DNA of 64,000 bases from Herbinix sp. (lineage in GTDB: Bacteria; Bacillota; Clostridia; Lachnospirales; Lachnospiraceae): NCBI GenBank assembly GCA_029256105.1, contig JAQSYO010000012.1, positions 1 through 64,000 of the forward strand. Reading direction: 5' to 3'. Shown piece by piece: positions 4,170 through 64,000 of this stretch; within the stretch, counting starts at the first letter, position 1; each line of letters opens with the position of its first letter. Position numbers and translations under genes: made by a program. The notes beneath the pieces were generated by a model, which was given only the letters and a program-made list of their open reading frames with translations, ran no database searches and was not told where the DNA came from.

Positions 4170-4729
4170 TTACTTTTCAACCTCCATTACATTTTTTTGT
4201 TCTTCTCCATAAAATAGTTCCTTATTGTCCCCATTCCCATTTTGATTCTATGCCTAGGGTTGTCCGTATTTCAAATTTCACTTATCGTGAACAATTGTGT
4301 AGCACTTTTGGTTTCATGTTGTTTTATGATATTATTATACATCTTGCACAATAGAGCGTCAATAATTATCGCAATAGCAAATTAAACAAAATATGGATAA
4401 CATAATATGACTTTTATTATTAATATTTTACATTAATAGTCATTAAACAACAATAAAACCATAAAAACTACATCTTAAGTGACTTTTTTCTTTCTAAGCA
4501 TCTGTAAATATTTGCCATACATGAATTATATATATAACATTTCAAACTATCAAACGTTTCTTGTCGCACCATTCGACACCGAAATAAGGGAAAATATGGA
4601 TGATAAAAACGTAACCACAACATTTTGTATTATTGGAAAATATAAACAATTAATATGCTGTAATTTTGGAATAAATCGACTTGTATTATAAATTATTTCG
4701 TCGACTTCTTTTTATAACAAAAGATATCC

Positions 4730-6013
4730 TTATTCTAAATTATTTACCATGTTTTCTATGAAAGTACCGTAACCTTTCGTTGAATCCTGTATAAATACAT
4801 GCGTAACTGCACCTATTATCTTATTATTTTGTATAATTGGGCTACCACTCATTCCCTGTACAATTCCTCCTGTTAATTCAAGTAATCTTTTATCTGTAAT
4901 TCGAATTACGATTCCTTTACTATGATTACTGTTGCTCATATCCACGCTTTCAATTTCTATTTCATAATCCTCTACTTTATCTTCAATAGTACAGCGAATT
5001 AAAGCTTTACCCTTCTCAACTTCTTGTTTTAGGCCTATTTTCATTGGTTCCACAGTCAAATTTTCATCATATTCGTTACCAACTCTTCCGAAAATACCTT
5101 GATACGTGTTTTCCTTAATACTACCGATTTTGTATTTATCGCTTTGTCTAATCATACCGATTAATTCACCTGGTTCACCTTCTTTTCCTTTAATGATGGA
5201 CATTATCTCAGCTGCATAGATTGACCCATCTTTTACATCCATAAGTAAACCAGTATCAATATCAGTTATTCCATGTCCCAATGCTCCAAACTGTCCATCT
5301 GTAGATACAAAAGTTAGTGTACCAATGCCCTGTGTATTATCACGAATCCAAGCTCCTATCATATATTTGCCACTCGTCGTTTTGACTGGAGATATCCTTA
5401 CTGTGAATTCTTCTTTATTTCTACGTATTAATAAGGCTACATCTTTCCCATTACATTTTTGGATTTCATCAATTAAATCCTTTTTCTTATTCATCCCCTT
5501 ACCATTAATCGCCAAGATATAATCACCTGATTTTAATTTATTATTGATGGGTTCGTGATTAAGGCCATCATCTCCTGTAATTTTACCGCTCCCTAAGACT
5601 AAAATACCATCCGTCTCAACATATATTCCAATGGGATAACCACAGGGAATTAACTCTGCAGTTTCAATAACATCTAGTGAGATGTTCTTAAAATCAAACA
5701 GTCCGAACAATTTTAAACTAACATTGTATTTACCGGTCTGTGAGGATTCCAATGTAAAGGGTCTGTTCATATCAATATTGATTTGATTTGAAGGAACTCT
5801 TAAATCATTAACACTGATAACTCCAAGATCATCCGTTTCAATATTTGCTTTAAATGGCATATTAAAATCGAAACTTTCTTGAGTACCTACTAACATTTTA
5901 ATTTCATCCGGTATACTTTTTTCTATTTTATAAATAGCAAAAAATCCGATTGCAAAAATATTTACAATGAAAAGGTAAATCAAAACCCTTCTATATATTT
6001 TACGTCTCCTCAT
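4730..6013 (-). CDS. spoIVB: SpoIVB peptidase (S55 family)
   Basis: N-terminal TM segment, PDZ-like region, FGALGHGITD and GMSGSPIIQNNKIIGAVTHVF motifs; adjacent to spo0A. Confidence 0.97.
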   Translation of the reverse strand: MRRRKIYRRVLIYLFIVNIFAIGFFAIYKIEKSIPDEIKMLVGTQESFDFNMPFKANIETDDLGVISVNDLRVPSNQINIDMNRPFTLESSQTGKYNVSLKLFGLFDFKNISLDVIETAELIPCGYPIGIYVETDGILVLGSGKITGDDGLNHEPINNKLKSGDYILAINGKGMNKKKDLIDEIQKCNGKDVALLIRRNKEEFTVRISPVKTTSGKYMIGAWIRDNTQGIGTLTFVSTDGQFGALGHGITDIDTGLLMDVKDGSIYAAEIMSIIKGKEGEPGELIGMIRQSDKYKIGSIKENTYQGIFGRVGNEYDENLTVEPMKIGLKQEVEKGKALIRCTIEDKVEDYEIEIESVDMSNSNHSKGIVIRITDKRLLELTGGIVQGMSGSPIIQNNKIIGAVTHVFIQDSTKGYGTFIENMVNNLE

Positions 6014-6209
6014 CCTTTCACCTCATACCTTTTTCCTAGAAATTTAGTTTTTCATTCTATACATAGAAACATGGCTCTTCAAAATTTCATGGAAATTTTG
6101 GTTTTAAACATTTATTAAAAGCTTTTGTTTAACAAAATTATTGTCATTCGTAACTTTTTTGATGATCGCGCAATCTTTGGCATTATTCCACTTTTAAGCA
6201 ATCAAAAAA

Positions 6210-6233
6210 GGATATACATAGTATTGTATATCC
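6210..6233 (-). terminator. Terminator hairpin downstream of recN
   Basis: GGATATACA ... TGTATATCC flanked by A-rich and T-rich runs. Confidence 0.6.
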
Positions 6234-6263
6234 TCACTTTTAGTATTCTGCATTTTTCAATTT

Positions 6264-7949
6264 TTAAAGCTTGTATTTTTTAGTAGCTAGTGCTAATTCT
6301 TTCATTTCTTTTGCACTTTCTCTCACACGCTCCGTAATTTCAGCACCTCCAAGAATTCGAGATAACTCATTAATAGAATTTTCTTCATTTAATTCCATTA
6401 TCATTGTCTGGGTAGAAATACCATCTGTTTGCTTTTCGATAATATAATGTGAATCTGCCATCGCTGCTATTTGTGCAAGATGTGTAATACAGATTATTTG
6501 ATGATGCTTCGCAATGATTGATAGCTGCTCCGATACCTTTTGAGCTGTTCTTCCACTAATGCCCACATCTATTTCATCAAAAATCAAAGTTTCAATCTCA
6601 TCCTTATCTGCTAAAACTGATTTGATGCCTAGCATAATTCTGGAAAGTTCACCACCAGAGGCAACTCTTGACAATGGTTTCAAAGCTTCACCGGGATTCG
6701 TCGAAATAATAAATTCACCATCATCAAAGCCATTGGCTGAATAATGACCAGTCTGTTCAAATGTCATCTCAAACTTTACATCTAAAAAGTTTAAAGCAAT
6801 CAGTGCTTCACTAATTTTTTCGGTAAGTTCCTTCGCTTTTCTTTTTCTAATTTCGGATAACTGTTGAGACAAAAGATTTAATTTAGACTCAGCTTCTGTT
6901 AACTCTTTATTTAGCTTTTCCATATATACATCATAATCCCGATATTTATCTAATTTTAATTCGCAATCATGACAATAATTGATAATCTGTTCAATTGAAT
7001 TACCATATTTAGATTTTAAATGATTGATCGTATCTAAACGTTTTGTTACCTCCAATAGTTCCTCTTCCGGACTTTCCATATCAGATATATATTGTGACAA
7101 ATCTCTGTTTAAATCATTCAAAAGTTCGTCAATATCTGAAACTTGATTAAAAATCCCATTGATAGCCTCATCATACTCTGCTATCTTCGTTAGTAGACGT
7201 AACGCTCTTCCTACTGCATCACCTGCTGCAGTGGAATCATATCCGGTCAAACGATAAGCATTCTGCAACCCTTCAGAGATAGTATTCGAATTTGATAATT
7301 TCTTATACCGTATTGCTAGTTCAACATCCTCACCAGATATTAAAGCTGCTTTTAATATTTCATTTATTTCATAATCTAAAAAGGATATCTCTCGTAAACG
7401 CTTTTCCTCATCAATTCCCGCTTGATCATATTCCTGTTTTAATTTTACATAGTCTTTATAAGAATGCTCTAGTTCTTGCTTTATTGACCCGATTTCATCC
7501 TTTGCAAAACGATCTACAATCTCCATATGCTTTGCTTTATGTAAAAGAGACTGATGCTCATGTTGACCATGAATATCAATTAATAATCCTGCAATCGTAG
7601 TTAGTGCTGATGCAGTAACATTCTCACCATTAATTTTACATATACTTCTACCCGACATAATCTTCCTTGAAATGATGATTTGTTCGCCCTCAATCGGTAC
7701 ATCCAATTCTCTCATTGCAGCAAATATTACTTCATCCTTTGTTTCAAATACAAGCTCAATCAATGCATATTCTGCACCACTTCGAACGATATCCTTGTTA
7801 ATCTTCCCGCCAAGTGCCGCATTTACTGAACCAATGATGATTGATTTTCCGGCACCTGTTTCACCGGTCATAATATTTAGATGATCCTTAAAATATACTT
7901 CCACTTCATTAATAATAGCGAAATTTTTAACGTGTAGGCTGATTAACAA
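6264..7949 (-). CDS. recN: DNA repair protein RecN
   Basis: N-terminal MLISLHVKNFAIINEVEVYFKDHLNIMTGETGAGKSI, coiled coil, C-terminal VASGGELSRIMLGIKSVLADKDEIETLIFDEIDVGISGRTAQKV. Confidence 0.98.
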   Translation of the reverse strand: MLISLHVKNFAIINEVEVYFKDHLNIMTGETGAGKSIIIGSVNAALGGKINKDIVRSGAEYALIELVFETKDEVIFAAMRELDVPIEGEQIIISRKIMSGRSICKINGENVTASALTTIAGLLIDIHGQHEHQSLLHKAKHMEIVDRFAKDEIGSIKQELEHSYKDYVKLKQEYDQAGIDEEKRLREISFLDYEINEILKAALISGEDVELAIRYKKLSNSNTISEGLQNAYRLTGYDSTAAGDAVGRALRLLTKIAEYDEAINGIFNQVSDIDELLNDLNRDLSQYISDMESPEEELLEVTKRLDTINHLKSKYGNSIEQIINYCHDCELKLDKYRDYDVYMEKLNKELTEAESKLNLLSQQLSEIRKRKAKELTEKISEALIALNFLDVKFEMTFEQTGHYSANGFDDGEFIISTNPGEALKPLSRVASGGELSRIMLGIKSVLADKDEIETLIFDEIDVGISGRTAQKVSEQLSIIAKHHQIICITHLAQIAAMADSHYIIEKQTDGISTQTMIMELNEENSINELSRILGGAEITERVRESAKEMKELALATKKYKL

Positions 7950-8045
7950 ATAATATCCCTCATTTCTATAGGAAAGTTTTTCGTAACAATATAATTTACC
8001 TTAAATTATAGCTTATAATACACAACTCATAAATGAGTCAAAGCT

Positions 8046-8140
8046 CATATTTCATATCTCACATCTCACATCTCACATCTCACATCTCACATCTCATATC
8101 TCATATCTCATATTTCATATTTCATATTTCATATCTCATA
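8046..8140. repeat. Heptanucleotide tandem repeat, 13 units of CA(T/C)AT(C/T)T plus partial
   Basis: Direct reading: catattt catatct (cacatct)x5 catatct catatct (catattt)x3 catatct cata. Confidence 0.95.
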
Positions 8141-8324
8141 AATCTATCTCTCGAATTAGAAACATATGTTCTGAATATATTGTATCATAATGGAAAAGTA
8201 GAATCAATCCTAACTTTAATTCCTTGTAGGAATTAACAAAAATAAGTATCTTTATTATTCAATATACCCATATTGCAACAAAACTAGTGAGGTAAAAACC
8301 CATTAATCAATTTAAAATAAAAAA

Positions 8325-8391
8325 ATTACTGCCGATAGAAAATGCAAGAAACGAGATATTCGTTATAATGCCTTTCGACTCAGCAGTAATT
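8325..8391 (-). terminator. Hairpin downstream of the Big_2 protein gene
   Basis: AATTACTGC ... GCAGTAATT with nested AACGA gatat TCGTT. Confidence 0.5.
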
Positions 8392-8400
8392 CTTATTCTA

Positions 8401-11400
8401 CTAATCTATTTTTACTACTTTTAACTTACAAGTGAGTTTCCTTCCATTTACAGTAGCTGTGATCGTCGCTTTCCCAACTGCTCTTGTACTTACATTTCCA
8501 TTTGTCACAACTGCAACCTGCGGATTATCGATACTCCAATTTACTGTTGTAGTCGCTCCTTCAACCTGAAGCGGATATGGATATGTTGTGTACTGTTCTA
8601 AGACTAGTTCCGTCATATTTAAACCAATTACGATAACTTCAATATTCGCAGTTTTCCCAGAATCAGTCATAACCGTTATATTCGCAGTTCCTGTTGATCT
8701 TGCGTAAATCTTTCCTGTCTTTTTATCAACTCTGGCGATTGCAGCATTATCCGAACTCCAGGTTGTAGAATCTGTTGACTCAGCAGGGTTAAGACGTACT
8801 TCAACTAGTTTATCTTCACCAGGTACCATAACCAGTCTTTTATCCATTAATGTAATTGCTGTTGATGGTAAACGATCACGAACTGCAACATAACAAATCG
8901 CTTTCTTACCTGTATTATCTTTTGCTTCTGCAACTATCGTTGCACTGCCCGCTTTTAATGCAGTTACTACTCCATCCTCATCTACGATTGCAACACTTTC
9001 ATCACTAGAGGTCCATCTTGCTGTTCGATAAGTAGAATTATTCGGCCTAATTGATACATTAAGTTCCTTACTATCCCCAACTAACATCGCCAGATATGCT
9101 TTGTCCAGAGTGATACTGTCAACCGGAGTAACAACCCTTACCTCACAGGTTGCTTCTACATCACTGCCATCCATAGCAGTTGCAGTAATTGTAGCATACC
9201 CGACTGCAATACCTGTGATTTTACCTTTTTGATTTACCGTTGCAATTCTATCGTTACTTGTACTCCAATGAACCTTTGGATTTGTAGCGTTTTCGGTCAT
9301 TACTGTAGCTTTTAATGTAGCGGTTTTCTTAATACCTATATTGTAGGTTTCATAATCAAGTTTAATTGTAGTGACACTCTCTCTTACGGTAACTACGCAG
9401 GTGCTTGAATATCCTCCATCAAGTGTAGTACAAGTAATTACTGTTACTCCACCCACTAAAGCGGTTATTTCGCCTTCCGCTGATATCGTTGCAATCTTTG
9501 GATTAGAACTTTTCCAAGTAACTCCTAGTTGCGTAGCTTCACTTGGCGACACTGATACCTTTAATTTAAATTCATCACCAACAAAAATAGTTTTTTCTGT
9601 GAAGTTTAGTATTAGTCCATCTACCGGCTCGGTGACGGTCACCTTACAATATGCAATTCCTCCTGCTTCTGTTCTAGCCATAATAACAGCAGAACCAGCA
9701 GCTTTTGCTGTAACTTTACCGTTTTCATCAACAACTGCGATCTTGGTCTCACTGGATTCCCATACCAAATTATTATCGGTACTATCCTTTGGAGTCAAGG
9801 TTGTCTTTATATAATAATATTCACCTGTTTTTAGGTTTAATTCTGTTTCATCAAATTTAACGGCTGTAGCAACTCGTTTTACTGTAATCGTACAGTATAC
9901 AGAATAACCACCATCTAACGATTTCAATATAATTACTGAAGTACCAACATTCTTGGCCGTAACCTTACCGGTAGCATCAACTGTGACTACGCTGGAATTC
10001 GTTGATGTCCAGGTTACTGCATTTGTACTGGCGTTGTTTGGAAGGATTACATAGGAAAGTCTTGCTGACTGTCCGACATACATTGTCTTTTCTTTCTCAT
10101 CTAGAGCTAAGGAAACAACAGGTATCTGAATTGTTATATTACAGATCGCCCTTGCTTTCGCATTATCGTCTGAGGTTGCAATAATCGATACCGAACCTGG
10201 CTTTAACAATGTAACTAAACCATTTGCATCTACCTTTGCCTTCGTCTCATCGGTAGAGCTCCAAGACACCGCCTTATTTATTGCATTTTCAGGATATACG
10301 GTGGCACGAATTTGTAAATGTTTCATAGATAAATCTACGATTACATCTGACTCTGATAATACAACACTCGTAACTGATTGTTGTATATTAACATGGCAAT
10401 AACCAACAACTACATTATCTTGATTAATTGCAGATATTACAGCATGTCCACCTGCAACACCCTGAATTGTGGTTGTCAAAGCACTTGACTCGACTATTTT
10501 TACAAGCTTTTCATTTGATGATTTCCAGGTTAGTGTTACACCACTTAAATTTTTAGGTGTTATTGTTGCATGTAAGGTAGTATATCCACCAATCGGTAAG
10601 GTTATTTCCTCCGGATCAACTACAATTGTCGCAACGGATTGCTGTACGGTAATTTGACAGGTTGCTTTTTTCACAATACCGTTAATCGTCTGCTTTGCTG
10701 TGATGGTTGCAACACCTGCTTTTACACCAGTTACTAAACCACCTTCTACCGATGCTATACTGGCATCACTAGTGGACCAAGTAATCGGCTCCGTGGGATC
10801 CGTTACGATGGCATTTAGCAATAAGGTTCCTTTCGTAAATAAAGTAGCACTGGTTTCACTAAGTGAAATCCCATCTATTACAGTGACATCAATATTAATG
10901 TTAATCGGATCAGTAGTATCAAAAAGATCATATTGGGATAAGTAGGATAAATGGATTGTTACATTACCCTTTTTTTTGGCAGAAATGATGCTTGTATTTG
11001 TATCAATAGCTGCAATATTGGCATTATCTGACGTATAGGAAAAAATCCCTGCAGCAGGTATATTAGAGTTTTCTAAAATACTATAGGTATCCCCAACTGT
11101 CATTACAAGGTTAATATCTCCAATATTAATTGGAACAACTATTTTCATATATGCATAAGGAGCATTCGTACTCCTAGTGTAACTTTCATTGGCAAATGCA
11201 TACACCTCATAAGTACCTGCTTTTACTTTGGTAAAGGATACTGCACCACTGATCTCACTGACGGAATATGACATCTTGCTGGAATCTCCCGCCGGAAGTT
11301 TTTTCTTCGTACTAACGTCATATACTTCCCACTTAAGATTAGCAGCTCTTGTTGCATTGGACTCAATTACAAAATTAGAGGGTACTCCATTGGCGACAGA

Positions 11401-12189
11401 GGGCGCTGTATAGTCCGCTGAAGAATTAACAGGGCCGGTGGGTAAACCATAATCTAAACTAAATTTGGGCTTCACTACTACTCTCATAGTTATCTTCATC
11501 GGTTTATCCTGTGTGGACATCGTATTACTGGTCGCCGTAATCGTAGTACTACCAGCACCGACGGCTTTCACCTTACCCTCCGCATTAACCGTGGCCACTC
11601 CTTCTTTATCACTCTCCCAGATTACTGCCGAAGTTGCAATAGCAGCTCCTGATACCGGAACAACGGAACCATCCGGATTATAATCAACATATTTTAAAAA
11701 TATTGGTTTTTCATCGTTTATCGTATCAATGACCAAGATTTGCTCATTCGTGGTTGTTGCAGTAACCATTCCGGTTTTTTGATAGTCAAACTCAAGATCA
11801 ACTTTAACAGAACAGTTAATGGTATAAGAAAGTGTACCCGAAGTTACAATAGCGGTAATTGTGGAATAACCGGGTCCTTTCCGAATTAATTTCACAAAAT
11901 TTGAGGGAGTAGAGGGGTCTGATTCTAGAGTAACAACTCCTGGTTCAGATGAAATCCATTTAACAGTGGAGGAATCAGCCCAACCCACCGCCGTAACATT
12001 AAGCAAAACCTCTGGCCGCGTTAACACATATTCAGATCCAGCATTTTTAATTGTACTATTAAATACAAAATAATAATCCGGTAGTGTAGCACTTGATGCC
12101 TGCTCACTAGCTCCACTAAAATTTAAAAGTACAATTGTTAAAAGTAGGCTGAACACAAAAGTAAAGCCAATTTTTTTTGTTATTTTCAT
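8401..12189 (-). CDS. Large secreted multi-domain bacterial Ig-like (Big_2) protein
   Basis: Signal peptide MKITKKIGFTFVFSLLLTIVLLNFSG; about 13 WxSSxxxIAxVDxxGxVTAxxxGxxxIxA motifs. Start moved from TTG at 12204 to ATG at 12189 after GGGAGG. Confidence 0.92.
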   Translation of the reverse strand: MKITKKIGFTFVFSLLLTIVLLNFSGASEQASSATLPDYYFVFNSTIKNAGSEYVLTRPEVLLNVTAVGWADSSTVKWISSEPGVVTLESDPSTPSNFVKLIRKGPGYSTITAIVTSGTLSYTINCSVKVDLEFDYQKTGMVTATTTNEQILVIDTINDEKPIFLKYVDYNPDGSVVPVSGAAIATSAVIWESDKEGVATVNAEGKVKAVGAGSTTITATSNTMSTQDKPMKITMRVVVKPKFSLDYGLPTGPVNSSADYTAPSVANGVPSNFVIESNATRAANLKWEVYDVSTKKKLPAGDSSKMSYSVSEISGAVSFTKVKAGTYEVYAFANESYTRSTNAPYAYMKIVVPINIGDINLVMTVGDTYSILENSNIPAAGIFSYTSDNANIAAIDTNTSIISAKKKGNVTIHLSYLSQYDLFDTTDPININIDVTVIDGISLSETSATLFTKGTLLLNAIVTDPTEPITWSTSDASIASVEGGLVTGVKAGVATITAKQTINGIVKKATCQITVQQSVATIVVDPEEITLPIGGYTTLHATITPKNLSGVTLTWKSSNEKLVKIVESSALTTTIQGVAGGHAVISAINQDNVVVGYCHVNIQQSVTSVVLSESDVIVDLSMKHLQIRATVYPENAINKAVSWSSTDETKAKVDANGLVTLLKPGSVSIIATSDDNAKARAICNITIQIPVVSLALDEKEKTMYVGQSARLSYVILPNNASTNAVTWTSTNSSVVTVDATGKVTAKNVGTSVIILKSLDGGYSVYCTITVKRVATAVKFDETELNLKTGEYYYIKTTLTPKDSTDNNLVWESSETKIAVVDENGKVTAKAAGSAVIMARTEAGGIAYCKVTVTEPVDGLILNFTEKTIFVGDEFKLKVSVSPSEATQLGVTWKSSNPKIATISAEGEITALVGGVTVITCTTLDGGYSSTCVVTVRESVTTIKLDYETYNIGIKKTATLKATVMTENATNPKVHWSTSNDRIATVNQKGKITGIAVGYATITATAMDGSDVEATCEVRVVTPVDSITLDKAYLAMLVGDSKELNVSIRPNNSTYRTARWTSSDESVAIVDEDGVVTALKAGSATIVAEAKDNTGKKAICYVAVRDRLPSTAITLMDKRLVMVPGEDKLVEVRLNPAESTDSTTWSSDNAAIARVDKKTGKIYARSTGTANITVMTDSGKTANIEVIVIGLNMTELVLEQYTTYPYPLQVEGATTTVNWSIDNPQVAVVTNGNVSTRAVGKATITATVNGRKLTCKLKVVKID

Positions 12190-12315
12190 TACATTCCCTC
12201 CCAAAAAACCTAGTCATATAGAATATATCGGCAATTAAAATGGATTTAATTAGTTTAATTACCTATAATTTTAAATGTAATTTTTGGCACTTTTGTGTCA
12301 ATATAGTAAGAAAAA

Positions 12316-12349
12316 TGGGAATGTCGGAAAGAGTTCTCCGGCATTCCCA
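12316..12349 (-). terminator. Terminator of the heavy-metal ATPase gene
   Basis: ATGGGAATGTCGGA aagagttc TCCGGCATTCCCAT stem. Confidence 0.75.
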
Positions 12350-12353
12350 TCTT

Positions 12354-14501
12354 TTATTTTATACGCATGGCTCTCATTGCATTAAAAAGTGCTATCAATG
12401 CTACACCAACATCGGCAAAGATTGCAAACCATATGGAGGTGATATCAAGAAAGGCTAGAACCATGATTAAGGCCTTAATTCCAAGTGCAAAGATTATATT
12501 TTGTGTTACGATACTTTTTGTTTTATGAGCAATCTTGATAGCTGTTGCAATCTTACTGATTTCATCATTCATGATAACAACATCCGCTGCTTCAATTGCT
12601 GCATCGGAACCGATACCGCCCATAGCAATACCAATATCTGCACCAGCAAGTACCGGAGCATCATTTATTCCGTCTCCGACAAATACGATCTTGCCTTTAC
12701 CAGCCGCCTGCTTCTTGTATTTCTCAAACCAGGCAACCTTATCTTGTGGTAATAGCTCAGCTTGATATTCATCCACTTGACAAAGTTCAGCGATTTCTTT
12801 GGCTGTATTTGTATGATCCCCGGTCAACATAACGGTATGTTTTACTCCTAATTGCTTTAGGGCAATCATGGTTTCTTTCACTCCAGATTTAATCTCATCC
12901 GATATCAAAATATAACCAAGGTATTTGTTATTCTTCGCTACGTGAACAATACTACCGGTGGCCTCGGTAAGGGGTGTGAGAATATCAAATTTACGCATCA
13001 GCTTTTCATTTCCTGCGTAAATGACATATTCTCCACACTCAGCAACTACTCCGTGCCCCGCCAGCTCGGTGATTTGCGCTGTCTCAATGCTTAAGGTCTC
13101 TATATCATTAGAATTATTATTTTTATTATAATAAGATAGGATTGACTTCGCGATAGGATGTGTGGAATGATTTTCTGCAATCGCTGCGCTGTAAATCAGC
13201 TGATCAATATCCACTCCCTCTGTCGGGCATACCTTAGTAACTTTGAAAACTCCCTTTGTAAGGGTTCCTGTCTTATCAAATACAATGGTATCTACCATTT
13301 TTAAGGCATCTAGATAATTGCCACCTTTGATTAAAATGCCTTGTTTCGCTGCACCACCAATACCACCAAAGAAGCTGAGTGGAATGGAAATAACGAGGGC
13401 ACAAGGGCAGGATATAATTAGAAAGCTTAATGCACGATATAGCCAATTCGTAAAGGTACCATATCCCAGCAATGGTGGAACTACTGCAACAGCAACTGCA
13501 GCAAATACTACAATCGGAGTATAATATCTAGCAAATTTGGTGATGAATTTTTCACTCTCTGCTTTTTTACTGCTTGCATTTTCTACTAACTCTAATATTT
13601 TGGATACCGTCGCTTCTCCAAAGGGCTTTGTTACCTTAATTTCCAATACACCACTCGTATTGATAGTTCCGGATAACACAGTATCTTCAACCTCTACCTC
13701 TATCGGTACACTTTCACCGGTAAGTGCTCTCGAGTCAATGAAGCTGGTTCCTTTTACAACAATTCCATCAAGTGGAACTTTCTCACCCGGTTTTACTAAT
13801 ATAAGATCGCCAACTTCAATCTGTTCCGGTGCTACAACACTTATGGTATCACCTGTTATTTTATTGGCATAGTCAGGTCGGATATTCATTAAACCTGCGA
13901 TGTCTTTCTTCGATTTATTAACTGCTTTCTCCTGTAGTAGTTCACCTACTCCGTAAAACACTAGGACAGCGATTGCTTCTACTCTCTCACCAATGAGAAA
14001 GGCACCCAGGGATGCAATTCCCATAAGGAAATTTTCATCAAATATATCGCCTTTACGAATGTTTTTTATCGCAGCAGATAGTACTTCATAACCAGCTAGT
14101 ATATATGCAACAATAAAGAAAGCAGTTTTCATACCATTTGATACATTAACTACCGAAAATATAATTGCCAAAGCGACTGCTATTCCCAGACGTAGAAAGT
14201 ACGTTCTCATCTCTTCCTCCGCTTCCTGCTTCTTATTAGATGCAGGCTGTTTATCCATCTCCTCCTTCTCCGTTAAATCCAGGACTTTTACTGAGGGTTC
14301 GTGGGAGGCAACAATCGTTTTAACCTTTTTCGTAATATCTGTGACTCCTGTATCTTGTAGTGCGATGCTTAGTTTATTATTCATCATATTAATACTGGCT
14401 TCTGTTACCCCTGATAGATTACTGACCTCTTTTTCAATTTTTGCTGCACAGTTTGCACAGCATAGACCATCTAAAATATATTCCTTATTCTCCATACCCA
14501 T
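12354..14501 (-). CDS. Heavy-metal-translocating P1B-type ATPase (Zn/Cd/Pb-type)
   Basis: HMA domain CCANCAAKIEKEV, SCPCALVISIPLSFFGGIG, DKTGTLT, GDGINDAPVLAGADIGIAMGGIGSDAAIEAADV. Confidence 0.96.
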   Translation of the reverse strand: MGMENKEYILDGLCCANCAAKIEKEVSNLSGVTEASINMMNNKLSIALQDTGVTDITKKVKTIVASHEPSVKVLDLTEKEEMDKQPASNKKQEAEEEMRTYFLRLGIAVALAIIFSVVNVSNGMKTAFFIVAYILAGYEVLSAAIKNIRKGDIFDENFLMGIASLGAFLIGERVEAIAVLVFYGVGELLQEKAVNKSKKDIAGLMNIRPDYANKITGDTISVVAPEQIEVGDLILVKPGEKVPLDGIVVKGTSFIDSRALTGESVPIEVEVEDTVLSGTINTSGVLEIKVTKPFGEATVSKILELVENASSKKAESEKFITKFARYYTPIVVFAAVAVAVVPPLLGYGTFTNWLYRALSFLIISCPCALVISIPLSFFGGIGGAAKQGILIKGGNYLDALKMVDTIVFDKTGTLTKGVFKVTKVCPTEGVDIDQLIYSAAIAENHSTHPIAKSILSYYNKNNNSNDIETLSIETAQITELAGHGVVAECGEYVIYAGNEKLMRKFDILTPLTEATGSIVHVAKNNKYLGYILISDEIKSGVKETMIALKQLGVKHTVMLTGDHTNTAKEIAELCQVDEYQAELLPQDKVAWFEKYKKQAAGKGKIVFVGDGINDAPVLAGADIGIAMGGIGSDAAIEAADVVIMNDEISKIATAIKIAHKTKSIVTQNIIFALGIKALIMVLAFLDITSIWFAIFADVGVALIALFNAMRAMRIK

Positions 14502-55197: not shown

Positions 55198-56022
55198 TTA
55201 GATATTATTGCCATCCCCATAATTATTCCAATTATTATTGTTGAATTTATTAACATTATCATTATATAGTATAAAAATTGCAGGAAGAATGACAATGCTT
55301 ATCATAGAAAGTAATATTAAAATTATATAATAACTAGGTGTAAAGATTATCCCTCTCGACACCTTATTAAAATTAATCATTACATTCGTAAACGTAGGAA
55401 TACATAATAACAATATTACTAATAATAGCTTCCAATAATTTTTTACACCTGCTTTTGCTCCATTTTTCAACCCTTGAATCACCCCTATATCATCTATAAA
55501 GATCGATGGGAACCATAATATAATAAACGGACTGGTAACGCAAACTAAAGCAGTGGTAATCGAAGTAGTTATTATGCTTACGGAATAAATCGACTCTGCA
55601 CCGTGAACCATCATTATTAATGTAACCGGCACAATCATTATCGACAATACGACAGATATGCCTACAGAAAATGCTATGAGTAAGAGCATCGCAAGTAATA
55701 CCCTAACAAAATATTTTTTAAGTCCGGGCAAAAAGGAATTTATGGAAGTCTTTCCTTGCACAACTGCTTCAGTAATCATATTGCCATAACCGGCAAAGAA
55801 TAATAAACCCAATATACTTATTAATGCTAGTGCAGTTAGTAACTTCATCATCGTTATGCCATAAGCAATAAAATCAAAATTAGTTGGATTCGTATTATAG
55901 AACTGGCTCATATCCCTTGGATAAAGTGCAAATACTATCAGGAACATGACTACCAGATATCCTACGTAAAGAATGATTATGCTAGGATTCCTCTTAAGAA
56001 GATTGATTGATTTTTTTAACAT
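55198..56022 (-). CDS. Hypothetical integral membrane protein
   Basis: Multiple TM segments from MLKKSINLLKRNPSIIILYVGYL; start trimmed from 56208 to ATG at 56022. Confidence 0.75.
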   Translation of the reverse strand: MLKKSINLLKRNPSIIILYVGYLVVMFLIVFALYPRDMSQFYNTNPTNFDFIAYGITMMKLLTALALISILGLLFFAGYGNMITEAVVQGKTSINSFLPGLKKYFVRVLLAMLLLIAFSVGISVVLSIMIVPVTLIMMVHGAESIYSVSIITTSITTALVCVTSPFIILWFPSIFIDDIGVIQGLKNGAKAGVKNYWKLLLVILLLCIPTFTNVMINFNKVSRGIIFTPSYYIILILLSMISIVILPAIFILYNDNVNKFNNNNWNNYGDGNNI

Positions 56023-56048
56023 ATAAATACCCATGCCTTTCCTCAAAA

Positions 56049-56108
56049 CCTGCAAGCTTTGGGCTGCAGGCACAAATTTGCGTGTGAAAAATCTTGATTT
56101 TTCACACG
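56049..56108. repeat. Two adjacent inverted repeats just upstream of the membrane protein gene
   Basis: CCTGCA agctttgggc TGCAGG and CGTGTGAAAAATC tt GATTTTTCACACG (13-bp perfect arms). Confidence 0.85.
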
Positions 56109-56222
56109 ATACCTCTTTTTGAATGTTATTACTTCTCGATTTATTCTGTTTTATTTTTCTCGCACTTACATTATTATTGTACAACGAATGATTGTAAAAT
56201 AATACCATTAAATGCTTAATTA

Positions 56223-57041
56223 TTAATTTCCTACGCTCTCATACAGTGTCAGACCCTTGCGAAAAAGTTTAATGGATAGATATACACTATAAACTGAGAC
56301 AATGGGAACAAACCACATAATCTTTGCCCCTAGGCCTTTGTCCAATAGTAGTGAAACAGGGAAAAAGCTTACAAATGCATAGGGTACAAGAAAAGTTACA
56401 ACAAATTGGATTGCTTTGGGGTAGATTGTAATCGGATATTTCGTATATTCTCCAACATTATGTATTAAGTTTCCGAATGCATTACCTGGAGCCTTTGTCC
56501 AAAAGGTGATACAGTTTGATGCTAAGATAACAGCTCCTCTGATTGGCAGCGCTAGAATAAATAATAAAAAACACAACAGAATACTAGTCAACGTGATCTT
56601 ATCGGAGCAATGTAGGAATGCTGTAATAAAAATAACCGTCCCAGATATCAAATTACCAATTCCATGTAATCCTATCTTTGAAGCAAATACTTGAAATACC
56701 ACCGGCAACGGTTTGATCAACAGATAGTCCATATCGCCACGCAGATAAAGACCATTAATCGTCCAAGGACCCTCAAAGAATATCTCTCCAAATCCAATGG
56801 TAAAATTCATCATGGAATATACCAATACAATTTCCCAGTATCCCCATCCATTAATCTCGTGCACGTTAGTAAATATTCCCCATATCGTAACTAACCCAGC
56901 AAATTGCATTATAAAAGATGCAACAAACTGAACGAAAAAGTCTAGCTGATACTCCAGCAGCCTCTTCAGCTCTTGACTGATATATCGTTTGTATAAATAA
57001 ACGTATCGTTTAAATTTTTGTCCCATACTTATCTCCTTCAA
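56223..57041 (-). CDS. ABC-2-type transporter permease (DUF990-like)
   Basis: 6-TM ABC-2 permease; GDMDYLLIKPLPVVFQV; adjacent to second permease and ATPase. Confidence 0.9.
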   Translation of the reverse strand: MKEISMGQKFKRYVYLYKRYISQELKRLLEYQLDFFVQFVASFIMQFAGLVTIWGIFTNVHEINGWGYWEIVLVYSMMNFTIGFGEIFFEGPWTINGLYLRGDMDYLLIKPLPVVFQVFASKIGLHGIGNLISGTVIFITAFLHCSDKITLTSILLCFLLFILALPIRGAVILASNCITFWTKAPGNAFGNLIHNVGEYTKYPITIYPKAIQFVVTFLVPYAFVSFFPVSLLLDKGLGAKIMWFVPIVSVYSVYLSIKLFRKGLTLYESVGN

Positions 57042-57086
57042 TGAACTGAATTGAATATAGTAACTCTTTTCTCTATCAGGTATAGT

Positions 57087-57884
57087 TCAACCACCATATA
57101 TCGTAACTTTTCTAATGCAGATAGAAAACAAGACTTTTCCAAGCAAAAACAAAATAATAATCCATGCAATTTCCTTCAAAAACATAACTCCTATTTGTGA
57201 AAGCTGCACCTGATTTAGAAAAATGGATGCCGGAACGGATACGATATATTGGAACGGCATATTCTTTAAAATACTTTGGCACCATTCCGGGAAAAATAAT
57301 ATTGGTACCAAACCTCCTGAGCACAGGTTTGTAATTGCAGCCCTTGCCCATTGTATACCCATATAGGAGGTTGTTATAAAGGTAAGTAAGGAAAACAAGT
57401 AAACGACCCCAAATTTAATAATTAATGCAAAAACAATACTTACAAGAAAACAAATCCAGGTCAGGAAATCCTCCGGCAATGGAATTTGAAGTGTTATTAT
57501 TAAAGCAATCGATGCAACTGTTATCACAAGAGCCTCAAATATTGACGAACCAATTGTTTCTGACAATCGTGCAAAGTAAAAATTAAATGGTTTGATTAAA
57601 TCCATGGCTACGCTACCATCTAATATCTTTCTTGATATGGCAGACTCGGAATACCAGGACAATAAGGTATTGCACATAAAAGCCACCAACAAATATCCTT
57701 TCATACTTTCCCAAGAATAAATGGATACCATATCCTTACCCGCAAATACTGCTTTCCATAGAAAAAAAGAAGAGATAAATAATAGTACCGTAACCATCAT
57801 TGATATAAAAAAGTTAGATCGATAAGCAACCGTCTGCTGTGTAGAGGTTTTAATTAACGTTATGTATTTTTTATATTTCCGCAT
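57087..57884 (-). CDS. ABC-2-type transporter permease (DUF990-like)
   Basis: ILDGSVAMDLIKPFNFYFARLSE; similar topology to neighbouring permease. Confidence 0.9.
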   Translation of the reverse strand: MRKYKKYITLIKTSTQQTVAYRSNFFISMMVTVLLFISSFFLWKAVFAGKDMVSIYSWESMKGYLLVAFMCNTLLSWYSESAISRKILDGSVAMDLIKPFNFYFARLSETIGSSIFEALVITVASIALIITLQIPLPEDFLTWICFLVSIVFALIIKFGVVYLFSLLTFITTSYMGIQWARAAITNLCSGGLVPILFFPEWCQSILKNMPFQYIVSVPASIFLNQVQLSQIGVMFLKEIAWIIILFLLGKVLFSICIRKVTIYGG

Positions 57885-57920
57885 TTAGACTTCTCCTCTG
57901 GTGAAAAATTATCAAACATT

Positions 57921-58946
57921 TCATAAATCACAAGTTGCCTGCATTGCTTGCGACAAATTACCGGAATACATCTTCATGATAACTGTTTCTATCTTAGGTT
58001 CGTCAATTTTAAAATCTAAAACCTCATAATCCTGTGTAAAAATATTTAATAACTGAGTAGCCCTTGTCTCAAATCTGTTAAAATTTATCTTAATCATATT
58101 AGTATTTTCTAGAATCTCGTATTGAATTGTCGGATAATCCTGAAGCCGTTTTTTTGCGTCCAGAATGGGAGTTGTCGTTTCTATTGTAATGGCTCGTTCC
58201 TTGGCATAAGTATCCTTCATTTCTGCAAGATTACCATCATAAATTAAGGATCCTTTATCTATAATTACAATCCGTTCACAGATGTCCTCAATGTCCTCAA
58301 GATCATGTGTCGTCAAAAGTACAGTTGTATGATTGGAATGATTTAACTCCTTAAGAAACTGGCGAATCTTTTTCTTAATAACGATATCCAGCCCAATGGT
58401 AGGCTCATCCAGATACAGAATCCGTGGCTTATGAATAAGTGCTGCGGCCAAATCCGCACGCATTCTCTGTCCAAGAGATAATTTCCTTGCTGGTAAGTAC
58501 AAAAATTCCTCCATATCAAGAAGTGTAACTAACATATCTAGTTGATCGCGAAACTGCGCTTCCGACAATTCATAAATATCACGAAGCAGTGTGTAGGTTT
58601 CTCTAATCGGGATGTCCCACCAAAGTTGGGTTCGCTGCCCAAAAACTACACCGATATTCTTCGCATTTTCTATCCGCCTCTTAGAAGGTTCTACCCCACA
58701 TATACGTACCACACCTGAAGTTGGATGTAAAATACCTGTCATCATCTTGATTGTGGTGGATTTCCCTGCTCCATTCGGTCCTACATATGCAACAGCTTCA
58801 CCCTCATTAATATTAAAATTAATATTCTTTACCGCTTCCTTTGTAACATATTCCTGTGTAACAATATGTCGTAAGGCTCCTGCTAAACCTGGTTTTTTCA
58901 CTGCTTGTTTAAAAACCTTATTCAACTGTTCCACTTCAATTATCAT
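57921..58946 (-). CDS. ABC transporter ATP-binding protein
   Basis: Walker A GPNGAGKSTTIKMMTGIL, KLSLGQRMRADLAAALIHKPRILYLDEPTIGLD. Confidence 0.96.
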   Translation of the reverse strand: MIIEVEQLNKVFKQAVKKPGLAGALRHIVTQEYVTKEAVKNINFNINEGEAVAYVGPNGAGKSTTIKMMTGILHPTSGVVRICGVEPSKRRIENAKNIGVVFGQRTQLWWDIPIRETYTLLRDIYELSEAQFRDQLDMLVTLLDMEEFLYLPARKLSLGQRMRADLAAALIHKPRILYLDEPTIGLDIVIKKKIRQFLKELNHSNHTTVLLTTHDLEDIEDICERIVIIDKGSLIYDGNLAEMKDTYAKERAITIETTTPILDAKKRLQDYPTIQYEILENTNMIKINFNRFETRATQLLNIFTQDYEVLDFKIDEPKIETVIMKMYSGNLSQAMQATCDL

Positions 58947-59375: not shown

Positions 59376-61811
59376 CTATACAATAATGATATGCGTTTTT
59401 CCATCATCCATAAGTTTTATCTTGTTTCCTATTACTTTTTCATTGTCAAGCATTACTTCCTGTGTAGACAATACTCCTTTACTTCTACTCTGTATTTTTA
59501 TATCGTATACAGTTGACCTGTATTTATACTGTATTGAATAGTCGCCAAAGCTTATCGGTGTCGCAGGATCAATCACAAGATAACCCTCCTCTTTTCTTAC
59601 CCCCAAAAACCAGTTAACCAAACCTTGATACATCCAACCTGCCGAACCGGTGTACCAGCTCCACCCACCTCTTCCCGTATAAGGAGGGCTTAATGATATG
59701 TCAGCTATCATTACATAAGGTTCTTTTTCATATCTCATGGAATCTCTTTTATTCAATGTGATGTGAATCGGATTTAACATGGTAAATAGGGTATGTGCCA
59801 TTTTATAATCTCCTATCATCGCACTGGCTATGGCAAGCCATACAGCAGCGTGGGTATACTGACCGCCATTTTCTCTAATTCCAGGATAATAGTTCTTGAT
59901 ATACCCAGGATTTTTACTGGTTTTATTAAAGGGTGGAGCCAGAAGCAGGGAGATTGATTCTTCTTCCTTAACTAAATAACGCCAGGCAGATTGCATCGCG
60001 GTTAAGGCTCTATCTTTGTTAGCACCTTTCGATATCACGCTCCAGGACTGACTTATTGAATCAATTCTGCATTCATCATTTTCTTTCGAGCCCATCTTAG
60101 TTCCGTCATCATAAAATGCTCTAAGATACCATTCTCCATCCCAGGTATGCTCCTCAATGCTATGGATTAAAGCTTCTCTTTTTTGTTCCAGTTCCTTTGC
60201 ATATTCTGGGTCATTTTCATAATAACAAAGTGGTATAAAATCCCCAAGCAGGGTGTATAAAAACCATGCCAGCCACACGCTTTCTCCGGTTCCCTCTATT
60301 CCCACTTCATTCATGCCATCATTCCAATCACCGCCACCCATTAAGGGTAGACCATGTATCCCAAACCTGGTAATTTGGATTGTTTTCTTGCAATGTTCAT
60401 ATACGTTATCTACCACATCAGAAATTTCTGGCGTAAACATGATATCATGTTGATTTTCTTCAAGTACCGGGCCTTTAATGTAGGGAACATTGTCTTTTAA
60501 TACATTGTAATCCCCTGTACCTCGAATATACGCTGCAGTGGCATAAGGCAACCATAATAAATCATCGGTTATTCTTGTACGAACCCCAACCCCCATAGGA
60601 GGATGCCACCAATGTTGAACATCACCCTCTACAAACTGCCGGCTGCAGGCGATGAGAATTTGGTTTCTTAAGGCACTTGGATTCGTTAATATCAGGGATA
60701 GGGTATCTTGAAGCTGATCTCTGTATCCATAAGCACCTCCACACTGGTAAAAGGCTGCTCTCGCATTTATTCTACAAGAAATTGTTTGGTATAAAAGCCA
60801 CCCATTTACCATAATGTCTATCGCTCTATCTTTTGTATTAACCTGGATGGTTCCTAAGGTCTCTTCCCAATAAGCTCTAACCTTTTCTAGCTCTTTTGGA
60901 ATCATTGAAATATCCTTATACTTATGACGAAGCGCATGTATTTGACCAAAATCACTACTCTGCCCAAGCCCAAATACCACAGTTTTACTTTCCTTTGGTC
61001 CTATTGCAACGGATACCTGTATGGCACCACAGGAGTCATAGCATACTCCTGTATTACAGGACAGCTTTGTATCTGCACCCTGTGGATTTAATATAGATCC
61101 TTTCGGTCCAAGGAATTCTTGTCTATCGCCGGTATACCCCTTTATCATCTCACTTGAGAAGATAAAAGCATTACTATTATTAAAATTAAAGGTATATAAA
61201 TTTTTAGCATTTAAATATTCATGCTCATTGTTATATGAGGTTAAAATATATGGATTCGTGTGCTCCCTTTGCGTGCCTAGAACCCACTCCACATAATAGG
61301 AAAGGCACAGATATTTCACCTTATCCGAATTATTCGTCAGCTTAAGTTCCCAAAGTTTTAGCGGTTCCTCCAGAGGAGTGAATACGGTAAGTTCTTGACT
61401 GGTGTTCGCTTCCTCATGTAGAAATTTGGTATACCCAAAGCCATGTCTCGTAAGGTAGGTTCCCCGATCTGTTCTTCCAAGGGATACGGGAGTCATGATG
61501 TCTCCCGTTATTTCGTCCAATATATAGATTGCTTCTGAGGCTTTGTCGCTCACCGGGTCATTGGACCATGGTGTTATCTTATTCTCTCTACTATTATAAG
61601 CCCAAGTAAACCCGGCTCCTGATTCCGATATATGAAACCCAAAGTTCTTATTTGCTATAACATTAATCCAAGGAGTCGGTGGTTTATTGCTTCCTTCCAG
61701 AAGAACTTCATATTCTCTTCCCTCCTCTATAAAACCGCCAAATCCATTGAAAAATTCATAGTTTTGACCTGCTTCTTTACTTTGTTGTATTGGTATATTC
61801 ACAGAATCCAA
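59376..61811 (-). CDS. GH94 phosphorylase-like protein, equivalent to the C-terminus of cyclic beta-1,2-glucan synthase
   Basis: YEFFNGFGGFIEEGREYEVLLE, CRINARAAFYQCGGAYGYRDQLQDTL, MGGGDWNDGMNEVG (GH94 acid region). ORF track ATG at 61841; TTG at 61811 has a strong SD AAGGAGG with 8-nt spacing. Confidence 0.88.
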   Translation of the reverse strand: MDSVNIPIQQSKEAGQNYEFFNGFGGFIEEGREYEVLLEGSNKPPTPWINVIANKNFGFHISESGAGFTWAYNSRENKITPWSNDPVSDKASEAIYILDEITGDIMTPVSLGRTDRGTYLTRHGFGYTKFLHEEANTSQELTVFTPLEEPLKLWELKLTNNSDKVKYLCLSYYVEWVLGTQREHTNPYILTSYNNEHEYLNAKNLYTFNFNNSNAFIFSSEMIKGYTGDRQEFLGPKGSILNPQGADTKLSCNTGVCYDSCGAIQVSVAIGPKESKTVVFGLGQSSDFGQIHALRHKYKDISMIPKELEKVRAYWEETLGTIQVNTKDRAIDIMVNGWLLYQTISCRINARAAFYQCGGAYGYRDQLQDTLSLILTNPSALRNQILIACSRQFVEGDVQHWWHPPMGVGVRTRITDDLLWLPYATAAYIRGTGDYNVLKDNVPYIKGPVLEENQHDIMFTPEISDVVDNVYEHCKKTIQITRFGIHGLPLMGGGDWNDGMNEVGIEGTGESVWLAWFLYTLLGDFIPLCYYENDPEYAKELEQKREALIHSIEEHTWDGEWYLRAFYDDGTKMGSKENDECRIDSISQSWSVISKGANKDRALTAMQSAWRYLVKEEESISLLLAPPFNKTSKNPGYIKNYYPGIRENGGQYTHAAVWLAIASAMIGDYKMAHTLFTMLNPIHITLNKRDSMRYEKEPYVMIADISLSPPYTGRGGWSWYTGSAGWMYQGLVNWFLGVRKEEGYLVIDPATPISFGDYSIQYKYRSTVYDIKIQSRSKGVLSTQEVMLDNEKVIGNKIKLMDDGKTHIIIV

Positions 61812-61843
61812 ATCATTTGCCTCCTTTCCTTTCTGAATCATCT

Positions 61844-64000
61844 TTATTCTTCAATAATTTCAGTTAGATTATCCTTGACATTTCTAAAGTAGATTCCTGT
61901 TTTTTCGGAAAATACAACCCTAGCGACCGTTAAGAGCAAATCAATCTCTGCGGGAATCATCTGATAAGAATGCAACATGAAAAGACTTGGCCTTTCGTTG
62001 CTCGTCTCGTAAATTCTTAGGGAGGTGGTAATATCATTAATCAAATCATCCACTTCCTGCATATAACCATGCTTTGCATCACTTAAAATAATAAGATCCA
62101 CAATAACACGATTAATTCTCAAATATTCATAAGCCTTCAGAACATCCTTTATGACGCCCGCTTCCTCTATCGATTTTACTCTAAGAAGTAGAATAGGATT
62201 ATCACCTGATACACCAAATCGCCATAGGAAACTTTGATTTTTAAAGTTTCTCCTTATATTTTCATCCGGACCTCTGTAATAACCGGAAGGATAGAAGATT
62301 GGACTGATTAAATCCTGAAAAGCGTTCATCTGCGGCCTCGAGATTTCAAGGTATTTCAGTTCAATCTCCGTTTGCAGTCTAAACTTCTCAAATATATCAT
62401 CAATTCGATAAGCAATTTTTAACTCTTCTCCAATTTTTATTGCTTCCTCCTTGTTTTGACACACGCCCGTTATAAATGAAATACAAGCCGTTTCACCCAC
62501 TCCTAAGGAAATACTAACACGCAAGCTCATAATCGGATCGTTACAAAAACCGGAAAGATTGGAAAGTGATATGCTGTTTACAATCGCATCCGGGTTTTCA
62601 AGTGAATTATTTCTCCCGATAAATTTAAGTCTATCATTCTCGTATTCCACTCTTTTTATTGGTATCGTTTGTGATTTGACCATATGCATAAGGTATGGAT
62701 TGCCACTATCCTTTTTACTTCGTCGCTTTGAAAGGAAGATTGATTGTTCTTCTAAAAATTCGCTTTCAATAAAAAGCTTATTAAACGCAGGATGACTTAA
62801 TTCTGCAAGATGGCTATCACCCACAACTTCAAGATAACTTGTGATTTCAAATTGCTTTCCCTCTTTTCCATTATTCGTTAAGGTAACTTTACGTATCTCT
62901 ATATTATGATTAGGATCAAGGCTGACCACTGTACACGAAGTAATATCCCCATCTCTTCTCTTAAATTCAGCTTGATGAGGAGAAAATATAACCTGATATT
63001 CATCCGGCTCTGTTCTTGTCGGATGATAAGCTGTGCTCCAGTACTTCCCTTTATTGATATCCTTTATATAAATATAGTTCCCCGTATTCGCATAAAGATC
63101 TGCTCTCCAGCGGTAGAGCATCATATTCTTGTAACTGCTAAAACCATCTCCGTCTGAAGTGATCATTAGGGAATATTTATTGTTAGAAAGGTAGTTTGCT
63201 ACGGGTATTTTCGGTGTAACACTGTTGACATAGCGGTTACTAAACACGTCTTCTCTGAAATATATCTTACCAATTTTAATTGTATATCCCCGCTTCGCAA
63301 TCGATATTAAATGGGATTGCCGCTTTTCTTCTAGCAGAACTTCAGTAGCTTTTACCATAGCTTCAGAATGGAATCTTTTCCGTATGATACCATGATTTAG
63401 AAAATTATTAATTGCCACTAAATTCATACCTTGATGGTGAGCCATAAAAGACCTTACAATGCAATACGGTGTCATTTCCACAGCATCCGGTCCATTAAAA
63501 TCAATTGCTTCATAAAATCCATATTCACCAAATGCACCTAACTCACTTAATTTTCTAAGATTTGATAAGCAGTCCTCACTCCCATATTCAATCGCTAGCA
63601 TGGTAGCATAAGGAGCTACCACTAGGGAGTTTTTACGTACCGGTTGTAATCTTAGTTTTGGAACTCCAAAAGCTTTATATTGGTAATTTGAATTAAGGTC
63701 AAAACGAAAATACTGAGATTCAGAGATACCCCATGGTATTCCCATTTCTTTTGCATAATTCATTTGTTGCAATACTGCCGCTTTTGATGATTCCGCATAT
63801 ACCGAACCTTCAAACTCTTTTAAAACCAGATTTGGCATTAAATATTCAAACATCGTCCCACTCCAAGAAACAAAGCATGGGATACCTTTTACTATTGTAA
63901 GTGGTCTTGCTAGCTTGTACCAATGTCTTAAGGGCACTTCGCCCATCGCTATTGCCAAAAAACTTGTTAATGAGGATTCAGACGCCATTAAATCATAGCA
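61844..64000 (-). CDS. Cyclic beta-1,2-glucan synthase-like protein: glucoamylase-like domain plus GH94-type N-terminal region (5' end beyond window)
   Basis: Frame continues past the tracked Met to the window edge (CYDLMASESSLTSFLAIAMGEVPLRHWYKLARP); CFVSWSGTMFEYLMPNL, FMAHHQGMNLVAINNFL. Confidence 0.9.
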   Translation of the reverse strand, partial: CYDLMASESSLTSFLAIAMGEVPLRHWYKLARPLTIVKGIPCFVSWSGTMFEYLMPNLVLKEFEGSVYAESSKAAVLQQMNYAKEMGIPWGISESQYFRFDLNSNYQYKAFGVPKLRLQPVRKNSLVVAPYATMLAIEYGSEDCLSNLRKLSELGAFGEYGFYEAIDFNGPDAVEMTPYCIVRSFMAHHQGMNLVAINNFLNHGIIRKRFHSEAMVKATEVLLEEKRQSHLISIAKRGYTIKIGKIYFREDVFSNRYVNSVTPKIPVANYLSNNKYSLMITSDGDGFSSYKNMMLYRWRADLYANTGNYIYIKDINKGKYWSTAYHPTRTEPDEYQVIFSPHQAEFKRRDGDITSCTVVSLDPNHNIEIRKVTLTNNGKEGKQFEITSYLEVVGDSHLAELSHPAFNKLFIESEFLEEQSIFLSKRRSKKDSGNPYLMHMVKSQTIPIKRVEYENDRLKFIGRNNSLENPDAIVNSISLSNLSGFCNDPIMSLRVSISLGVGETACISFITGVCQNKEEAIKIGEELKIAYRIDDIFEKFRLQTEIELKYLEISRPQMNAFQDLISPIFYPSGYYRGPDENIRRNFKNQSFLWRFGVSGDNPILLLRVKSIEEAGVIKDVLKAYEYLRINRVIVDLIILSDAKHGYMQEVDDLINDITTSLRIYETSNERPSLFMLHSYQMIPAEIDLLLTVARVVFSEKTGIYFRNVKDNLTEIIEE

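Follow-up and report, generated by a model that had tools for sequence, protein, structure and literature searches.

A split cyclic glucan synthase locus conserved in Herbinix and its relatives

A synthase-like locus in two reading frames

Is a very large polysaccharide synthase that appears in two reading frames a damaged gene, or an enzyme that is made as two chains? This question is raised by the 64,000-nucleotide stretch of Herbinix sp. DNA analyzed here (G000:C39:1-64000, hereafter the window), in which two consecutive open reading frames (ORFs) on the minus strand together resemble a cyclic beta-1,2-glucan synthase. ORF1 extends past the window edge: the whole contig was read, giving a complete product of 2039 residues (C39:61844-67963) with the order GT84-GH189-GP1-RFL, and its C-terminal 718 codons lie within the window (61844..64000). 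It closes with a TAA stop codon (61846-61844), two nucleotides before the ATG that opens ORF2. The latter (59376..61841) encodes the GH94 glycoside phosphorylase subunit GP2-GP3, measuring 821 residues from this ATG or 811 from a downstream TTG, and a search for transmembrane segments in it found none. ORF1 matched the Pfam families PF10091 and PF06165, and ORF2 matched a second PF06165 and PF17167. These readings agree with a first-pass annotation of the same DNA, which had described an upstream ORF with a glucoamylase-like domain and a first GH94-type region stopping at 61844, followed two nucleotides later, in another frame, by a second ORF with the complete GH94 domain.

We conclude that the window pair is a two-chain form of a known enzyme, and that the single chain is the usual architecture of this family and not a requirement of catalysis. 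Most probably, the chains are translated separately and then come together again as a single synthase, with ORF2 docked on ORF1.

Conservation of the split

A sequencing or assembly indel in a gene that is really fused would produce a similar picture. The nearest fused relative (L071) carries a linker of 33 residues at the split position, in which one indel or stop would be enough, and several of the surveyed loci from metagenome-assembled genomes (MAGs) have likely frameshifts inside domains (L231, L239, L240, L242, L243). Against this explanation, the same genome holds a second pair on contig C40 (G000:C40:247054-255632; L010:7055-15633), with products of 2034 and 818 residues encoded 17 nucleotides apart. 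This pair, which is 79% identical to the window pair in GH94 and 70-83% identical by domain, is either a paralog or a sign of strain mixture. The two pairs belong to a clade of 15 loci, the other 13 of which come from 13 other genomes in the genus, the wider family and beyond (G004, G006, G009, G012, G014, G019, G022, G023, G281, G341, G523, Anaerocolumna aminovalerica DSM 1283 as L136, and a mixed MAG as L139), and every one of the 15 is split at the same place. The complete loci all have full-length ORFs of ~2000 and ~800 residues; ORF1 of G009 is cut by the contig end, and the ORF lengths of the A. aminovalerica locus equal those of G450/L229. Since the second copy and the 13 orthologous loci are split at the same place, the split is real and not a sequencing error. 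The clade includes the cultured A. aminovalerica DSM 1283 and Herbinix hemicellulosilytica T3/55T (G022), the spacing between the two ORFs ranges from -4 to 61 nucleotides, and a ribosome binding site with a start codon stands at the cut, all of which leaves the indel a probability that is virtually nil. Comparing split and fused orthologs was a check proposed in the first-pass annotation, for which close relatives with a fused frame and an indel in the window would have pointed the other way; the clade proved to be split throughout.

Two of these loci have peculiarities of their own. L139 (JAKOTN010000100.1) lies on a contig labeled Pseudomonadota bacterium, yet its synthase belongs to the split clade of Lachnospiraceae, with 63% GH94 identity; the contig is probably mis-binned. 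L070 (G281), a split ortholog at 7336-13140, has lost ~100 residues from the central part of GH189 (positions 218-315 of the domain query), where fused enzymes often fail to align as well.

A decaying pseudogene pair left by duplication might also be considered, given the two copies in one genome and the patchy occurrence of the synthase in the family (6/397 genomes). However, the ratio of nonsynonymous to synonymous substitutions (dN/dS) was 0.04-0.14 for both ORFs (in four pairs, half of which had a dS near 1.9), the catalytic residues are intact, and the ORFs of the complete clade loci are full-length. Both genes are under strong purifying selection, and decay is extremely improbable.

Translation of ORF2

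Programmed ribosomal frameshifting or stop-codon readthrough would yield a full-length fusion from the same DNA. ORF2 opens just two nucleotides past the stop, as such a mechanism might have it, and in the ortholog L078 both ORFs share one frame with a TAG between them. Yet among the clade loci ORF2 lies in frame 0, 1 or 2 relative to ORF1, the stops are TAA, TAG or TGA, and there is no shared overlap of the frames: many loci have an overlap of only a few nucleotides, and L010, L075 and L076 have none. The differing frames and stops and the varied spacing exclude a common frameshift or readthrough.

Furthermore, the junction carries a strong Shine-Dalgarno (SD) sequence and a start codon of its own. 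In the window, AAGGAGG (61826-61820) stands 8 nucleotides before an in-frame TTG (61811-61809), exactly the spacing given in the first-pass annotation. This TTG is the probable start of ORF2, encoding the first Met of MDSVNIPIQ..., and it lines up with the starts MDTVSIP, MENTIIP and MDNMMIP of L072, L075 and L076; hence, we consider it a more likely start than the ATG at 61841. An AGGAGG or AAGGAGG is found 7-9 nucleotides before an in-frame start just past the ORF1 stop in 13 of the 15 clade loci, the start being TTG in 10 and ATG in 3. The exceptions are L070 (ATG without a good SD) and L139 (GGAGG 5 nucleotides before ATG). As a background rate, AGGAGG lies 5-10 nucleotides upstream of 3 of the 1993 internal in-frame ATG, GTG or TTG codons in these genes. 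Because ORF2 starts right behind the ORF1 stop, it is probably translated by coupled termination-reinitiation, which is the simplest reading. A frameshift or readthrough product has a very slim chance. On the evidence of orthologs, junction frames and dN/dS, we thus reject all four of these explanations, namely an error in the sequence, a programmed frameshift, readthrough and a pseudogene. The suggestion in the first-pass annotation of genuine separate translation, and not a simple frameshift, is upheld by the conserved SD-start unit, the varying frames, the orthologs and the selection on both genes.

Position of the cut

Matching to PDB entries aligned residues 109-2023 of ORF1 to residues 80-1997 of the Agrobacterium tumefaciens synthase (At Cgs), and residues 16-789 of ORF2 to residues 2032-2808, so that the two products follow one another along the single chain. 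The order of At Cgs determined by cryo-electron microscopy is NTD, GT84, CY (979-1535), GP1 (1536-1846), RFL (1847-2012) and GP2-GP3 (PMC10901819). Counted from the alignment ends, ORF1 stops at ~2013 and ORF2 begins at ~2027; with RFL ending at 2012, the cut falls on the border of RFL and GP2, within the phosphorylase half. It had been placed at the boundary before GH94, which is right in that it lies just ahead of the catalytic part, but the cut is inside the phosphorylase half and leaves GP1 on ORF1.

Within the window, ORF1 thus comprises part of the GH189 cyclization domain (63284..64000, from the alignment to 8wy1 and a residue check), GP1, which is the first, non-catalytic beta-supersandwich subdomain of GH94 type (62354..63268, from PF06165 and the predicted fold), and RFL, a Rossmann-like subdomain that closes the chain (61847..62353, from the At Cgs limits and the model). 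ORF2 contains the beta-supersandwich GP2 (60963..61679; PF06165, residues 55-293) and the catalytic (alpha/alpha)6 domain of GH94 with the motif GGGDWNDGMN (59601..60872; PF17167, residues 324-747).

The AlphaFold2 model of ORF1 residues 1540-2039 (pLDDT 74.7) displays the GP1 sandwich and an RFL of alternating helices and strands, with TM-scores of 0.82-0.83 to Cgs (8RFE/8RF9/8RF0). Its last predicted strand lies ~21 residues ahead of the stop, and the final 15 residues are disordered. In the model of ORF2 (pLDDT 81.4) the GH94 fold is complete, with TM-scores of 0.88 to Cgs (8RF0/8RFE), 0.85 to cellobiose phosphorylase and 0.72 to LpSOGP. The GH189 of ORF1 was also matched by 8WY1 of Thermoanaerobacter italicus.

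Catalytic and primer residues

The GT84 positions D658/D660 (the LDADT aspartates), D772, R806 and Y727 are present in ORF1, and its hydrophobic segments are as expected. The GH189 positions E1329, E1373, E1415, H1509 and H1510 are present as well. By alignment to 8wy1, E1329 and E1415 are the catalytic glutamates, equivalent to E1356 and E1442 of the T. italicus enzyme (TiCGS), and H1509/H1510 form the His pair; the roles of the TiCGS residues are taken from published work (PMC10834661). The phosphorylase set is complete over the pair, with GP1-RFL on ORF1 and GP2-GP3 on ORF2, including the general acid D508 (60318-60320), which aligns to D2528 of At Cgs. Besides the window, 35 loci (26 of them split, 9 fused) keep the GT motifs, the primer tyrosine, the GH189 glutamate pair and HH, and the GH94 aspartate. 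The exceptions are L093, which is cut by a contig end and has a gap at a single GT position, and the broken L087, with a gap at E1400.

Occurrence and recurrence of the fission

GH189 matches were found in 149/391 genomes of a class-wide sample, most of them in frames of 2400-3150 residues, that is, fused, and in 47/300 genomes of a phylum sample, nearly all fused. Of the complete loci among the best 80 hits over many phyla, only those of the window clade and L212 were not fused; L201, a locus without GT84 and GH189, was left out of the count of fused and split genes. Within the family, the synthase is split in the window genome and three others and fused in two, which look like another lineage (39-41% identity). 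The first-pass annotation had described the canonical synthases as one chain, and the synthases examined outside the clade are indeed fused, with few exceptions.

Trees of GH189 and GH94 were built with FastTree (135 rows) and with IQ-TREE under a mixture model (53 rows), and their root was not inferred. The split clade forms one group in both (13/13 in FastTree; 9/9, with support 100, in IQ-TREE), with the fused L071 as sister, then L096/L097. We read from this nesting inside fused synthases that the direction of change was from fused to split. The 135-row tree needs 8 changes between the fused and split states and the 53-row tree 7, at least 6 of them forced by supported branches; therefore, the fission recurred, and the same inner cut seems to have been made on several independent occasions. 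Cuts between RFL and GP2 also occur in 4/4 examined genomes of family f54 (L081-L084), 3/3 of f62 (L085, L087, L095), three of f31 (L089, L091, L093) and the single genomes L088, L212 and L238. Since separate lineages are cut here, the RFL/GP2 boundary is a genuine border between modules. We excluded from the fission count those breaks that fall inside domains and have overlapping frames (L231, L237, L239, L240, L242, L243 and the GH189 break of L087), as they look like assembly errors.

Other cuts were also observed. L086 (G425, 5140-13333) is divided between GT84 and the rest, L094 (G381, 4011-12063) between GH189 and GP1, L230 inside RFL, and L095 (G105, 6241-13610) into three pieces (GT84, GH189-GP1-RFL and GH94). 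Splits seen in single genomes, including L086, L094 and L095, may include assembly errors.

It is conceivable, if rather doubtful, that fission before GP2-GP3 is a recurrent and selected innovation by which the length-control phosphorylase becomes an exchangeable, separately dosed subunit. If true, the amount of bound GH94 chain would tune the ring size, or switch the enzyme between synthesis and phosphorolytic recovery of glucose 1-phosphate.

A proposed two-chain synthase

We propose that one transcript would give rise to two chains. ORF1 would be the membrane chain, priming itself on a tyrosine and then elongating the beta-1,2-glucan from UDP-glucose through GT84; its GH189 would close the ring, and its GP1-RFL would serve as a docking platform. 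ORF2, started from its own SD and TTG, would be a soluble, cytosolic GH94 phosphorylase chain that binds GP1/RFL non-covalently, trims the growing chain by phosphorolysis and acts as a scaffold. The product would presumably be a cyclic beta-1,2-glucan.

Length control by GH94 phosphorolysis is established for Cgs, and in At Cgs the substitution D2528A, which affects GP catalysis, is nearly harmless, while truncation at 1846 abolishes function (PMC10901819). The truncation abolishes function and the catalytic mutation does not, so that GP2-GP3 must be present as a body; hence, ORF2 should dock on GP1/RFL. By analogy, phosphorolytic length control may also operate in the window pair. The pieces of the synthase can evidently work unchained.

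Alternatively, the freed GH94 could be a soluble beta-1,2-oligoglucan phosphorylase that acts independently of the synthase and turns linear or mis-sized glucan back into glucose 1-phosphate. It has a complete fold like the free-standing phosphorylases, to judge from its similarity to cellobiose phosphorylase, and no membrane segment. However, ORF2 stands right behind ORF1 in 15 loci whose other neighbors are not common, its nearest match is the GH94 of Cgs (E 5e-214 vs 4e-85 for cellobiose phosphorylase), and this part is required as a scaffold in At Cgs (PMC10901819). An independent enzyme is thus unlikely, and we favor the reassembly of the two chains.

Some points weigh against the reassembled synthase. 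The formation of a complex between ORF1 and ORF2 is read from homology, and the same holds for the predicted action of the ORF2 GH94 on beta-1,2-glucan. The contamination of the window genome is 7.48%, so its two copies might stem from two strains. Moreover, a ChvA-type exporter above the family cut-off was not found in the genome, where the family search gave only generic ABC exporters below it and also gave signals in all controls. The first-pass annotation had suggested a two-subunit synthase/phosphorylase system in a Gram-positive bacterium; the comparative data support the split genes and their separate translation, and the single complex and the beta-1,2-glucan activity remain predictions.

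Neighboring genes and transcription

The ORF1-ORF2 pair stays adjacent, and no other neighboring gene is generally common to the orthologous loci. In the window, genes for an ABC ATPase, two ABC-2 type membrane proteins and another membrane protein follow directly behind the pair on the same strand (55198-58946). The ABC-2 type transporter genes (56223-58946) were considered as a glucan exporter and rejected, as they are next to the pair in no other orthologous locus; given this lack of synteny, we claim no link to glucan export. Between ORF1 and the PEP (phosphoenolpyruvate)-phosphotransferase gene (ptsI family) upstream of it there is a hairpin with a T-run, which is compatible with ORF1-ORF2 being a transcription unit of its own. 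Promoter and terminator scans gave no signal above shuffles after ORF2.

Free-standing GH94 proteins and significance

GH94 proteins outside synthases were also encountered. L080 (G037) was first taken for a distant split ortholog, but no GT84 or GH189 was found in 19 kb of its locus, and we take it for a free-standing GH94. This 795-residue protein (6656-9043) shares 37-39% identity with ORF2 and is thus closer to the GH94 of synthases than to that of cellobiose phosphorylases. In the rhizobial relative Ensifer sp. Root278, L201 (8534-12385; 1283 residues, with GP1 and GH94 parts) amounts to a solitary phosphorylase half of Cgs type.

Since Gram-positive cyclic glucan synthases are already known, as in T. 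italicus (PMC10834661), only the split is unusual. A literature search, with subscription papers outside its reach, found no account of a split cyclic glucan synthase. In this pair, a very large polysaccharide synthase that otherwise consists of a single chain would occur naturally as two. The pair bears on a puzzle from Agrobacterium, where phosphorylase catalysis is dispensable and the C-terminal part is not, which has been ascribed to a scaffold role. With a separate gene, the GH94 part could be removed, titrated or swapped without truncating the membrane chain, in the culturable A. aminovalerica and H. hemicellulosilytica. Our findings also carry a warning for annotation: where a solitary GH94 gene follows a glucoamylase-like one, the two can together encode a cyclic glucan synthase, of which the GH94 is one half.

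Comparison with known systems

Read consecutively, ORF1 and ORF2 have the same order as At Cgs, NTD-GT84-GH189-GP1-RFL-GP2-GP3 (PDB 8RF0, 8RF9, 8RFE; PMC10901819), and the catalytic and primer residues checked are kept in the window pair. Nevertheless, At Cgs is one chain of ~2820 residues, whereas the window pair is two chains, cut at the RFL/GP2 boundary. The T. italicus CGS, founder of GH189 (PDB 8WY1; PMC10834661), comes from a Clostridia-type host, as does the window clade, and equivalents of its E1356, E1400, E1442, H1536 and H1537 are present in ORF1. Published work treats its GH189 region (1005-1591) as the middle domain within a longer CGS (PMC10834661), while the GH94 part of the window clade is a protein of its own.

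The free-standing GH94 enzymes, cellobiose phosphorylase and the 1,2-beta-oligoglucan phosphorylase LpSOGP (PDB 5H3Z), have their fold in common with ORF2. In structural alignments, ORF2 shares 41-43% identity with Cgs, 26% with cellobiose phosphorylase and 14% with LpSOGP (5H3Z/5H42). LpSOGP has its own GP1, whereas that of the window pair sits on ORF1 and is absent from ORF2. Further parallels are the split synthases of other Clostridia and of one Gammaproteobacteria MAG (L081-L085, L088, L089, L091, L093, L095, L212, L238), in which a downstream GH94 gene follows the same cut, on tree branches apart from the window clade (L238 stands outside the trees).

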